Below are positions 1,348 through 5,213 of a stretch of DNA of 47,737 nt, one piece after another; the stretch's first letter is position 1; every line of letters starts with the position of its first letter. A program made the position numbers and the translations under genes. The stretch covers positions 1 to 47,737 of the forward strand of contig CAKZLM010000155.1 in the NCBI GenBank assembly GCA_937126915.1, in the 5' to 3' direction. The notes below the pieces were generated by a model that was not told the origin of the DNA, did not search any database, and saw only the letters and a program-made list of their open reading frames with translations. Source of the stretch: an uncultured Alphaproteobacteria bacterium. GTDB taxonomy: Bacteria > Pseudomonadota > Alphaproteobacteria > Sphingomonadales > SMXR01.

Positions 1348-1902
1348 ATGAAGAATAAATTTTTAAGCATAATGGCATCAGGGCTTATATTGGTGACGTC
1401 ATTTTCATCAGTTAAGGCGCAAGACGCTGATTATGACCCAGAGGCACGCTTGGCTGAAATGGGTTTAACCCTACCAACGCCGCCAACACCTGTGGCTAAT
1501 TACGTTAATGGCGTACGCACAGGTAATCTTATTTTCTTGGCAGGTAAAGGCCCACTTTACCCTGATGGGCGTGAATTACGTGGCAAGCTTGGCAAAGATG
1601 TTACCATTGAAGAGGGCTATGACGGTGCCCGCATGACAGCCCTTAATCAACTGGCCGTTTTAAAGCAAATGTTGGGCAATCTGAACAAGGTTGTACGCGT
1701 GGTTAAGGTTTTAGGGATGGTAAACTCAGACCCTGATTTTGTCCAGCAACCTGCGGTTCTTAACGGTTTTTCTGATACCATTGTCGGCGTTTTTGGTGAA
1801 CGAGGCCGCCACGCCCGTGCAGCTGTTGGCATGGCGACCTTACCACGAGGTCAATCGGTTGAGGTTGAGATGATTGTTGAAGTAATGGATGAGGGTCAAT
1901 AA
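1348..1902 (+). CDS. RidA-family (YjgF/YER057c/UK114) protein with signal peptide
   Basis: The first ~23 residues (MKNKFLSIMASGLILVTSF, then SSVKAQ) form a signal peptide, so the mature protein should lie in the periplasm or be secreted. The rest is a complete RidA-like domain of the YjgF-endoribonuclease type, beginning at RLAEMGLTLPTPPTPVANYV and ending in EVEMIVEV. The arginine in HARAAVG aligns with the substrate-binding arginine of RidA, which deaminates reactive enamines/imines, so activity is possible. Family members of this type are usually cytosolic and ~150 residues long, so the export signal is unusual. I chose the ATG at 1348 because a strong GAGGGGAGAG ribosome-binding site precedes it; an in-frame ATG at 1303 would bury the signal peptide. 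The stop overlaps the start of the next gene (TAATG), implying translational coupling. The real substrate is unknown. Confidence 0.85.
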   Translation: MKNKFLSIMASGLILVTSFSSVKAQDADYDPEARLAEMGLTLPTPPTPVANYVNGVRTGNLIFLAGKGPLYPDGRELRGKLGKDVTIEEGYDGARMTALNQLAVLKQMLGNLNKVVRVVKVLGMVNSDPDFVQQPAVLNGFSDTIVGVFGERGRHARAAVGMATLPRGQSVEVEMIVEVMDEGQ

Positions 1903-2816
1903 TGCGGACGCTATTAACAGTTTTATTTATCTCTATGCTGGCAATTCCCACAAGTTTTGCGGCTGAGTTAAAGCTTAAATATTTTGGTGCTGCGGGTTGG
2001 GAAATCACCGATGGAAAAGTGGTGGTTTTAGTTGACCCCTATTTGACCCGTGCCAAGGTTACAGTTGGCCCATCGCACCCTGATGATACCCGCCCAGCTT
2101 ATGATCGAAACAAAGCAGCGGTTTCGGACACTAAAGTGATTGATGAGCATATCACCAAGGCTGACTTTATCTTGGTACATCACTCACATAACGACCATTT
2201 GTCTGATGTGCCTTATATCGCCAAAAAAACGGGAGCTAAGGTTATTGGCACTGAAACCACCACCACTATTTTAAAGGCTTATGGTGTTCCTGCAGATCAG
2301 CTCTACACGGTGCGGGGTGGTGAAGATTATCAGTTTGAAAACTTTTCGGTACGTGTGGTGCCTTCTATTCACTCTGCCCTTGGGGAGAAGCATTATTATG
2401 ATAGTCGCGAATATAAAAACCCGGATGAATTGGAAATTCCGTTAACCATTAATCAATTCATTGAGGGGCGCTCTTTGATGTTTTTAGCCCGTTTTGATGG
2501 TAAAAATGTTTTAACCATGGGGTCTATGAACTTCATTGAACGTGAAATGGATGGCTTAAACCCTGATGTTTTACTGGCGGGGATTAATGGCTCGCGTTTG
2601 GGGCTTTACAATTATGATGAACGCTTGGTGAGGTCTACAGGCATGCCAAAGGTTATTATTCCCACCCATTGGGATAATTTCCGCCTGCCTTATGGTTTTT
2701 CGCAAGAAGACAATGTGAAAAATAAATTGATCCCGTTTAAAGAAACGGTGGCGAAAATCTCACCCAATAGTGAAGTCATTATCCCACAACATTTAGGGAC
2801 CATCACGTTAAAATAA
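1902..2816 (+). CDS. Secreted metallo-beta-lactamase-fold (UlaG-like) hydrolase
   Basis: 304 residues starting with a signal peptide (MRTLLTVLFISMLAIPTSFA), so it is probably periplasmic. The metallo-beta-lactamase fold is shown by the opening KYFGAAGWEI..VVLVDPY strands, the metal motif HSHNDH at about residues 90-95, a further His in PSIHS and a late His in IPTHWDNF. The order resembles the UlaG-like/NAPE-PLD-like branch of MBL hydrolases. These bind one or two metal ions and cleave phosphoesters, lactones or similar bonds; the substrate here is unknown. It overlaps the exported RidA-like gene by one base and is followed by a good terminator, so the two form a bicistronic unit. Both products carry export signals, so they probably act in the same compartment and perhaps in the same pathway (inference). 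Confidence 0.85.
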   Translation: MRTLLTVLFISMLAIPTSFAAELKLKYFGAAGWEITDGKVVVLVDPYLTRAKVTVGPSHPDDTRPAYDRNKAAVSDTKVIDEHITKADFILVHHSHNDHLSDVPYIAKKTGAKVIGTETTTTILKAYGVPADQLYTVRGGEDYQFENFSVRVVPSIHSALGEKHYYDSREYKNPDELEIPLTINQFIEGRSLMFLARFDGKNVLTMGSMNFIEREMDGLNPDVLLAGINGSRLGLYNYDERLVRSTGMPKVIIPTHWDNFRLPYGFSQEDNVKNKLIPFKETVAKISPNSEVIIPQHLGTITLK

Positions 2817-2837: not shown

Positions 2838-2866
2838 AAGGGCTGACAGGAGTGTTGGCCCTTTTT
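2838..2866 (+). terminator. Rho-independent terminator after the RidA-MBL pair
   Basis: An 11-base-pair stem (AAGGGCTGACA paired with TGTTGGCCCTT, two G-T wobbles) closes a GGAG loop and runs straight into TTTTT. It lies 21 bases after the MBL stop. The T-tract overlaps the stop codon (2865-2867) of the convergent hydrolase gene on the minus strand, so the two convergent units share almost no spacer. Confidence 0.85.
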
Positions 2867-5129
2867 ATACCAAGTTACGTTTGATGGTTTCGCGCCATGT
2901 TTTTTCACGCACCGTTCTGCCCTTTTTTTGCAGGCTGGTTTCGACGGTCACATAAAAATTGTTTGCATCACTGCTGACCGATCCTTTGGCAACAGCGTTT
3001 AATTGCCCATTTGGGGTTTGGATGCGGCGATCCCCCACTAATGACATAGAGGTGTTGGCAGGGGTGTCTTTTGAAACCCGTGTTTCCATAATATCTAAAA
3101 ACTCGCGGCTAATACCATGGGGCATTTTGGTGATATAGCGACCATCGGTGTTAAACTTAATGATGTCTTCTTTTGTGTGATCATCAAAGCTGTGTTGATA
3201 GCTAACATCGGGCCATGTGCCAATTTTATAAGTCACGCCGGTATTAGGTTTTGGCGCGTTAATGGGGGCTTGGTGGAAGTTAAGGTTTTGCTCTTCACTC
3301 ACCATCGCATCGTGCCCTGTTGGTAATTCTATATAGCTTGCGTTATCACCGCCTGTATAAAGCGTGGTTAACATAGGGTATGGCGAAGGCCAAATATGCG
3401 GCCAGTCACCATTCACCACAACGACACGCAATTTATGCCCCGCTTTTAACTCATAAGCATTGGCGTTGAGGGTAATATCAAGCTGATAAATTTCACCAGG
3501 TGTCAAGGCAGTGGGGTTTTCGTGGCCCATGCGATGGGTGCCGTTTAATACGCCCTTAGAAATATAATGCGAGGTGCCATCAGGGGCGACATCACAAAGG
3601 CGCACAATCCATGTGGCAACAGGGGCTGTGGCTGCCACAAACAAGCGTGCCTTAGGATAGCCAAACAAGCGAGTTGGTTTTGATACGGGCTCGCCATCAA
3701 ACATCAGGCCCAATTGGTCAGAGGGTGTTTGGTCAAGGCCAAAAATGCCATCGCGCGATGTAGGCGCAAAAGTTTTGGTGTTAATCCCCGCTGCAGGAAT
3801 ATATCTGCGCTTTAAGGCTGAGGCCGAAAGTGGTTTTGTCTTGCCTAACCCACCACCAGTGCCAACCTCGTCATCACGGGCTTCAACATCTTTAATCGCG
3901 CGGCTTTCATCAGGGTGGAAATAATAGCGCTGTGTCGCCACCATCGCACTGTCAGGCACGCTGTTATAATAAGACCAGCTGCCCGGTATGTCGCCCGTAT
4001 AGCGAAAGCTGCGTTCATGGCTTTGGGTGGTGAATATGGTGACATCAGGTTCATCCATAACGCCGTTATCAATGCCTTTAAGCCAATAGTCAAACCAACG
4101 AACCAGTAAGTGAAATCGTAGGTCTAGTTTTGGTCCAACGGTGGCAACCCATGGCCATTGGTGAATATAGGGGCCAACAAAGGTCTTAACCGGGGCGGTC
4201 ATATGATAGGGCGCTCTAAGCGCATAATTTTGATAACCATCCATAAAACCCGTGACAATTAAGGTCGCGGCTTTGATGCTGCTATAATTGGTGTTTAGGC
4301 TACCTTCTTGCCAAAAGTCATTGCGGGTTTGTTGGCGACGCCAATTCATTATCCATGGTTCTTGGTCAAAGCGTTCAAGGGCTTCTGGCGAATGAATGTC
4401 ATACAGCGGGGTTGGTGGAAGCACATTTCGGGCATTAACCGAAATACCATACATTTCTTCCATAATTTGTGGCACTCCACCCATATAATGCACATCATCG
4501 GTATAAAGGTCATCGGTGGCATAGGCCGGAATGATGGCTTTTAAGGCAGGGGGGGCTTTCATCGCCACTTGGATGCTGTTAAATCCTGCATATGATTTGC
4601 CATACATGCCCACATTGCCATTGCACCATGGCTGTTTTGATGCCCAATCAATGATTTGAACACCGTCTTCAATTTCTTCTTTTGAATATTCTTGGGTGGC
4701 AACGCCGCTGGAGCTTCCCGTCCCCCGCACATCCACCGTCAAGGCAGCAAAACCATGATGAACCAAATAGCTATTATGATCAGCGGTATGATCAAGGCGG
4801 CGTCCATCTTTTTGATAAGGGGTTAAATCAAAAACAACAGGGATTTTTTGATCCGTGGGTAAGGTTTCTGTCAAATAAAGGCTGGCTGCTAACTTGGTTC
4901 CGTCAGGTCTGACCAGATTAAGGTAATAAATACTAATGCCTTCAATTGAGAAAGGCATTTCAAGACCAGCCGTAACTTTAATTTCAGGTGTGTCAATTAG
5001 TGCGGCATTGGTAATGTCACAGGCTTTGACCAAAGAATGTCGCTGTGCCATCAACAAAGAAGGTTGGGCGAAAGGCGAGCTAGCAATAACCCCCAGCGAC
5101 GATTTTATAAAGGAACGGCGATTAATCAT
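2865..5129 (-). CDS. CocE/NonD family alpha/beta hydrolase (S15 type) with Tat signal
   Basis: About 754 residues. The N-terminus reads INRRSFIKSSLGVIASSPFAQ, a twin-arginine signal (RRSFIK), so the folded enzyme is exported. The hydrolase domain has the nucleophile elbow GKSYAGF (Ser near residue 180), a probable catalytic Asp in TGFMDGY and His in VGPYIHQWP. A C-terminal beta-sandwich of the X-Pro dipeptidyl-peptidase/cocaine-esterase type follows, visible in RLFVAATAPVATWIVRL and HKLRVVVVNGDWP. The family hydrolyses esters, amides or glutaryl-acyl side chains; the substrate cannot be read from sequence. I place the start at the ATG ending at 5129; a TTG two codons upstream is the alternative and does not change the signal. 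No clear Shine-Dalgarno is seen. It follows rlmB on the same strand after 103 bases. Confidence 0.9.
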   Translation of the reverse strand: MINRRSFIKSSLGVIASSPFAQPSLLMAQRHSLVKACDITNAALIDTPEIKVTAGLEMPFSIEGISIYYLNLVRPDGTKLAASLYLTETLPTDQKIPVVFDLTPYQKDGRRLDHTADHNSYLVHHGFAALTVDVRGTGSSSGVATQEYSKEEIEDGVQIIDWASKQPWCNGNVGMYGKSYAGFNSIQVAMKAPPALKAIIPAYATDDLYTDDVHYMGGVPQIMEEMYGISVNARNVLPPTPLYDIHSPEALERFDQEPWIMNWRRQQTRNDFWQEGSLNTNYSSIKAATLIVTGFMDGYQNYALRAPYHMTAPVKTFVGPYIHQWPWVATVGPKLDLRFHLLVRWFDYWLKGIDNGVMDEPDVTIFTTQSHERSFRYTGDIPGSWSYYNSVPDSAMVATQRYYFHPDESRAIKDVEARDDEVGTGGGLGKTKPLSASALKRRYIPAAGINTKTFAPTSRDGIFGLDQTPSDQLGLMFDGEPVSKPTRLFGYPKARLFVAATAPVATWIVRLCDVAPDGTSHYISKGVLNGTHRMGHENPTALTPGEIYQLDITLNANAYELKAGHKLRVVVVNGDWPHIWPSPYPMLTTLYTGGDNASYIELPTGHDAMVSEEQNLNFHQAPINAPKPNTGVTYKIGTWPDVSYQHSFDDHTKEDIIKFNTDGRYITKMPHGISREFLDIMETRVSKDTPANTSMSLVGDRRIQTPNGQLNAVAKGSVSSDANNFYVTVETSLQKKGRTVREKTWRETIKRNLV

Positions 5130-5213
5130 GGACAAAACACTACAAATAAAAAGTTAAAAACCGGTTACAGTCTTATTAACAGTCAGAAAATTTTAAAGCG
5201 AAAAATTATTTGC

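Follow-up and report, generated by a model that had tools for sequence, protein, structure and literature searches.

Rid proteins are seen as a defence against damage by imines, which PLP and FAD enzymes produce, and it is not known on which substrates Rid1-3 act in vivo, as stated in the part of PMC4433059 available to us; signal peptides, the periplasm, secreted proteins and the term metallo are not mentioned in that part. PA0814 and ACIAD3089 are assigned to Rid1, and both deaminate 2-aminoacrylate and other imines in vitro (PMC5619798, available part). OngD, a RidA of 127 residues, is needed in a catabolic cluster that also contains a D-aminoacylase-type deacetylase (PMC9537276, available part). 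Here we compare with these systems a locus in which a predicted exported Rid is encoded beside an MBL-fold hydrolase (MBL). Like OngD, this Rid would stand in a pathway with an amide hydrolase-type enzyme; unlike OngD, whose pathway is cytoplasmic (PMC9537276, same part), it carries a predicted export signal. Each part of the module belongs to a known fold family, and the exported Rid module as a whole is undescribed in the open-access literature searched. No exported Rid, Rid–MBL fusion or link of Rid with FG-GAP proteins was found there, a weak absence since the search covered open-access texts only.

The window, a stretch of 47,737 nucleotides, is an entire contig (C155) of a 2.79 Mb genome in 176 contigs that is 99% complete. 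The features around the pair are collected in Table 1. The ATG of the Rid gene is preceded by GAGGGGAGAG, and its TAA stop (1900-1902) has one base in common with the MBL start codon (1902-1904), an overlap already seen in the sequence-only reading. The MBL start codon is preceded by a GAGGG motif at a distance of about 8 bases. Judged from the TAATG sequence, translation of the two genes is likely to be coupled. The hairpin downstream of the MBL gene has a folding energy of -15.9 kcal/mol (z -3.9; none of 200 shuffles as good) and is likely an intrinsic terminator, although a simple terminator pattern scan does not list it. The promoter scan of the window gives no more sites than shuffled sequence and none upstream of the pair, and the repeats within the pair are only short, chance-like ones. 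On the 5' side lies a TPR protein gene truncated by the contig start. With the one-base overlap, the terminator-like hairpin, the TPR gene upstream and a convergent hydrolase gene downstream, the pair probably forms a unit of two genes. The S15/CocE-NonD hydrolase counts here as a neighbour of this unit; an S9 (DPPIV-type) peptidase is found near two of the linked loci described below (L062 and L065).

Table 1. Features of the Rid–MBL locus and its 3' flank (window coordinates)
Feature	Position	Strand	Remarks
Rid1-type RidA-family protein, 184 aa	1348..1902	+	predicted exported; signal peptide about residues 1-23; R157 and E172 conserved
MBL-fold hydrolase (UlaG/UPF0173 fold), 304 aa	1902..2816	+	predicted exported; signal peptide about residues 1-21
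Conserved residues of the MBL			H94, H96, D98, H99, H157, H256
TAATG stop/start overlap, 1 base	1900..1904	+	from sequence
Hairpin followed by U run	2838..2863	+	22 bases 3' of the MBL stop; from folding
S15/CocE-NonD family hydrolase	2865..5135	-	convergent neighbour; twin-arginine-like N-terminus (INRRSFIKS)

The window Rid matches PF14588 with 71.2 bits (cut-off 35) and PF01042 with 51.1 bits (cut-off 27.3), and its score of 40.6 bits against TIGR00004, the model of archetypal RidA, stays below the cut-off of 106.25. Its nearest solved structure is 3d01, followed by PA0814 (9bk9), with ACIAD3089 (9bkb) within the best four. PA0814 matches at 2.4e-23 and ACIAD3089 at 1.4e-16, whereas the archetypal RidA-type chains reach 3.9e-6 at best. 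By its sequence, the window Rid is a Rid1-type protein and not an archetypal RidA. The sequence-only reading was thus right about a complete RidA-family domain with its active arginine (R157), while the RidA type holds only at the level of the family. R157 and E172 align with the catalytic arginine and glutamate of RidA, which we take by this alignment to be Arg105 and Glu120 of the E. coli protein, and both are invariant in the window Rid and in all 12 MBL-linked Rid1 proteins. From these residues, the window Rid would probably deaminate imines. It resembles PA0814 and ACIAD3089 in the PF14588 match, the catalytic pair and the closeness of its sequence to 9bk9 and 9bkb. In contrast to them, Rid proteins of the window type have a signal peptide or a lipobox, and in operons or fusions they are partnered by hydrolases and not by PLP or FAD enzymes. 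The same genome encodes a second exported Rid1 (L194, 4954-5529, on contig C130) with 42% identity to the window Rid and no adjoining MBL. Tandem Rid1 gene pairs are found in one family (f8) of the same taxonomic order, in the genomes G034, G044, G047, G025, G050 and G059.

The MBL matches PF13483 with 43.5 bits (cut-off 24), and its HSHNDH motif is intact (H94-S-H96-N-D98-H99), as had been claimed. The metal-binding pattern extends beyond this motif: all 60 aligned relatives have H94, H96, D98 and H99, and of those aligned at the later positions 58 of 58 have H157 and 56 of 56 have H256 and D258. At the position of the usual GDT aspartate (208, from the alignment to TM1162), 56 of 57 aligned orthologs have serine; the metal site may work with this serine. 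An AlphaFold2 model built with 34 relatives has a pLDDT of 90, and its best fold match is TM1162 (3x2y), with a VIA Z of 24.5 over 214 residues at 2.2 Å. Igni18 and 7e3w also match, and further down stands UlaG, with 3bv6 and with 2wym and 2wyl (Z 20.5-20.8 for the latter two). The score against the curated UlaG equivalog (L-ascorbate-6-phosphate lactonase) is 31.8 bits with a cut-off of 306, and that against the UPF0173 equivalog PRK00685, a metal-dependent hydrolase, is 63.8 bits with a cut-off of 144. AHL-lactonase models of NCBIfam give no match at E up to 0.001. Since the modelled fold matches and the scores fall below the curated cut-offs, the MBL is placed by its model in the UlaG/UPF0173 fold and outside every curated equivalog tested. 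The earlier description of a secreted UlaG-like MBL is therefore right in fold and in the signal peptide-like N-terminus, and wrong if taken to mean UlaG itself. TM1162 (3x2y) and UlaG (2wyl) share with the MBL the fold, the HxHxDH motif and two further histidines. The MBL differs from both in that it is longer, is predicted to be exported, has serine for the GDT aspartate and scores below the curated cut-offs; in addition, its relatives are fused to Rid and FG-GAP domains.

Export was called from N-termini by a heuristic of hydrophobicity, charge and cleavage site. It marks the window Rid as exported, in agreement with the signal peptide noticed earlier, and finds a signal peptide or lipobox in all 12 MBL-linked Rid1 proteins as well; several Rids of Bacteroidota have a lipobox cysteine. 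Cytosolic Rid1 proteins of genomes in the same order mostly start within a few residues of the domain. The signal peptide of the window MBL, read by eye, is MRTLLTVLFISMLAIPTSFAA. Of the 58 loci in which the MBL could be tested, 52 have an N-terminus resembling a signal peptide ahead of the domain; the other 3 of the 61 loci have no room for one. The six exceptions are the three Rid1–MBL fusions, L112, L085 and L116. In the fusions a linker of 12-15 residues takes the place of the MBL signal peptide, in L112 the MBL is preceded by a propeller, and in L085 the N-terminus is hydrophobic by eye, with no Lys or Arg.

To place the pair among other genomes, we searched 84,980 species genomes for six peptide patterns of the MBL alone, which gave 61 loci. 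A Rid gene lies within 1.3 kb of the MBL in 26 of them, 12 with a window-type Rid1 and 14 with a PF01042-type Rid; one MBL counted as linked (L099) is split in two frames. In 14 loci, Rid and MBL share one open frame. Three of these fusions are of the Rid1 type, in MAGs of Bacteroidetes (L062), Gemmatimonadetes (L071) and Pyrinomonadaceae (L117, cut by the contig end). The other 11 come from the 14 loci with a PF01042-type Rid and are mostly from Gemmatimonadota. By taxon labels, linked loci occur in five phyla (Bacteroidota, Rhodothermota, Pseudomonadota, Gemmatimonadota and Acidobacteriota); many of them are MAGs, so binning errors are possible. The sequence-only reading had asked for a genome-wide search for the same pair and would have regarded its absence elsewhere as a sign of accident; the occurrence in five phyla bears out the coupling it proposed. 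Linkage in 26 of 61 loci together with 14 fusions argues that the pairing is not accidental, and we hold the linked, exported Rid–MBL module to be real with high confidence.

The third partner of the module, missed by the sequence-only reading, is an exported-looking FG-GAP (integrin-like) β-propeller. An FG-GAP protein lies within 2.5 kb of the MBL or is fused to it in 33 of the 61 loci. Rid or FG-GAP is present in 45 loci, both in 14 and neither in 16, and five of these partnerless loci are near contig ends (L060, L061, L115, L118 and L119). By Pfam, triple fusions occur in two orders: FG-GAP–MBL–Rid in L112 and MBL–Rid–FG-GAP in L100. The linked bacterial FG-GAP proteins match PF13517, and a model of one of them (A3, 16 sequences) has a pLDDT of 88. 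The model matches LGI1, aldos-2-ulose dehydratase (4a7k), CRTAC1 (9etn) and integrin-α at tied Z values of 31-33, and such a fold, itself modelled, does not by itself tell binding from catalysis. The module propeller shares the β-propeller fold with CRTAC1, LGI1 and aldos-2-ulose dehydratase but differs from them in being bacterial and exported-looking and in having a GRHW stretch, which is invariant in 16 of 16 sequences. No FG-GAP gene lies beside the pair in the window. The FG-GAP protein of the same genome (L140, 1498-3015, contig C139; 45% identity) adjoins a zapA-like gene, away from the pair.

In a maximum-likelihood tree of 69 Rid1 proteins, 20 cytosolic proteins stand apart from 49 that are nearly all exported (100/88). 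One clade of 21 Rids (100/99) contains 13 MBL-linked proteins, including that of the window, 5 linked to an amidohydrolase and 3 others; a creatininase-linked Rid is one of its members. MBL linkage needs six changes on the tree, so it has been gained or lost repeatedly. We clustered the neighbourhoods of the 49 exported-Rid regions (48 loci and the window). Five loci encode an exported amidohydrolase of about 690 residues and 7 of the 49 regions an M19 dipeptidase, and carboxylate or amino-acid transporters are among the recurrent neighbours. For example, the genes for M19, exported amidohydrolase, Rid, MBL, FG-GAP and a Na+/carboxylate symporter stand in a row in Paraglaciecola marina (L093). 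L169 has the symporter, Rid (here with no signal peptide), amidohydrolase, FG-GAP and M19. In Arenibacter aquaticus (L095), M19 (by cluster), two amidohydrolases, FG-GAP and MBL are accompanied by a creatininase, an Asp/Glu/hydantoin racemase and a symporter of the same cluster as in the other loci. An exported Rid1 is fused to a creatininase-family domain in L126 (1465-2880), from the alphaproteobacterial genome G443, which has its MBL elsewhere. In the genome of the window, the large amidohydrolase has no close copy (best 28% identity over most of the domain), and M19 peptidase matches over the cut-off are unlinked to the pair. A sister set of five loci (L162, L164, L175, L176 and L184) combines an exported Rid1 with a twin-arginine DgaE-like PLP ammonia-lyase, a second exported RidA (PF01042), a deacetylase-type amidohydrolase and an RraA-like protein, joined in L162 and L164 by a TRAP-type transporter. 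This set is apparently another extracytoplasmic imine pathway.

We propose that the MBL would act outside the cytoplasm on an external metabolite and cleave a bond of the amide, lactam or lactone kind, with the FG-GAP propeller as its probable binding or docking partner. Cleavage would release an unstable enamine or imine. The exported Rid1 would hydrolyse this intermediate where it arises, giving ammonia and a carbonyl product resembling a 2-oxo acid, and the products would be taken up through carboxylate or amino-acid carriers. Both enzymes may be active, the MBL making the substrate of the Rid. We regard this relay, an exported hydrolase–deaminase module, as having somewhat less than an even chance. 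It is an economical reading since the partners in several settings (MBL, creatininase-type, amidohydrolase and M19) are exported metal-dependent amide or lactone hydrolases. The DgaE-like setting bears on it in two ways. The class of DgaE-like PLP lyases itself makes enamines, which fits enamine release outside the cytoplasm; as a counterpoint, the Rid1 proteins there adjoin the lyase and no hydrolase. The M19 peptidases include the mammalian dehydropeptidase, which frees enamines from dehydropeptides, and this chemistry is a lead for the substrate and not a test. We infer that the substrate may be a dehydro-amino acid or a cyclic amide and that the propeller may act as proposed. More tentatively, MBL, Rid and FG-GAP could form a horizontally spread extracytoplasmic complex that degrades enamide-type compounds such as dehydropeptides or cyclic amides. 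If true, this would be the first case in which Rid chemistry has been transferred to the cell surface and fused to its substrate-making enzyme, the Rid–hydrolase fusion would have been reached twice, from two Rid subfamilies, and marine and soil bacteria would carry out enamine chemistry beyond the cytoplasm. An exported Rid1 clade with hydrolase operons and a fusion would also give a handle on the physiological Rid substrate, namely the product of the fused hydrolase.

Other explanations account for parts of these data. In one of them the Rid domain has no catalytic role, and its trimer might serve as a scaffold on which the exported MBL and propeller oligomerise or are stabilised. Rid proteins are trimeric (PMC4433059, available part), and the fusion of two different Rid types to the same MBL would be expected if the trimer alone matters. 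However, all 12 linked Rid1 proteins retain R157 and E172, a matching arginine is seen by eye in the PF01042-type partners, and most Rid1 loci encode the Rid in a gene of its own, which makes a scaffold unlikely. A little less likely is a periplasmic lactonase, active in AHL quenching or sugar lactone opening, with the Rid acting on another product. UlaG, the closest characterised fold relative, is an ascorbate-6-phosphate lactonase, so a lactone substrate is conceivable for the MBL. Against this stand the score far below the UlaG cut-off, the amide and peptide hydrolases among the neighbours and the fact that lactone opening by itself yields no imine. The sequence-only reading had offered lactone hydrolysis or signal quenching as examples; its exported, coupled pair stands, but these functions find no backing in the recurring M19 dipeptidase, amidohydrolase and creatininase partners. 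Quorum quenching in particular was set aside as unsupported, with no AHL-lactonase model match at E up to 0.001, no luxI/luxR pattern among the annotated neighbours and no fitting gene context.

A protective role is about as improbable as the lactonase. The module would then serve protection and not nutrition, by detoxifying natural products that contain nitrogen (dehydropeptides or compounds resembling beta-lactams or hydantoins), as the MBL fold, the dehydropeptidase in the M19 family and the creatininase-type and Asp/Glu/hydantoin racemase genes of L095 would allow. The adjoining Na+/carboxylate and amino-acid carriers fit catabolism better, and no resistance context is seen among the neighbours. 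Finally, the pair is absent from the 60 same-order relatives searched, as would be the case for an accidental neighbourhood. By chance, however, about 0.6% of loci would have a Rid gene in the 1.3 kb to either side (6 Rid genes in the 2.79 Mb of the window's own genome), compared with the 26 linked and 14 fused loci observed. We reject an accidental overlap on the linkage and fusions in other genomes, and its probability is close to nil.

The proposed relay has to be read against the distribution of its parts. In the 60 same-order relatives, exported Rid1 is present without the MBL, for which no other genome gives a match better than E 1.6e-6. The search of the class found one clear MBL relative (G428, 45% identity) and six more at 27-32%, and the plasmid collection gave 17 records with distant MBLs only, all below 60% identity. 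The MBL is rare in the order and class, so the pair is sporadic. Conversely, a close Rid1 (at least 58% identity) is found in only 10 of the 29 MBL genomes searched, and an MBL-linked PF01042 Rid in 5 further genomes. In 13 of the remaining 14 genomes we looked for another exported-looking Rid, which is present in 8 (7 by the heuristic and G441 by eye); G449 encodes a Rid1 of 49% identity that starts in a Tat-like manner. An exported Rid was not seen in G453, G456, G460 and G461, about half of the matches having been examined as loci, which suggests that the MBL can occur without one. The Rid is a frequent but not obligate partner of the MBL, and the propeller is the more frequent one. In four MBL genomes (L220, L221, L223 and L232), another exported RidA adjoins a conserved queE-like gene of about 210 residues, by eye. 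The genome of L060 also encodes a triple-RidA protein (L229, 802-2259) with a twin-arginine-like N-terminus by eye.
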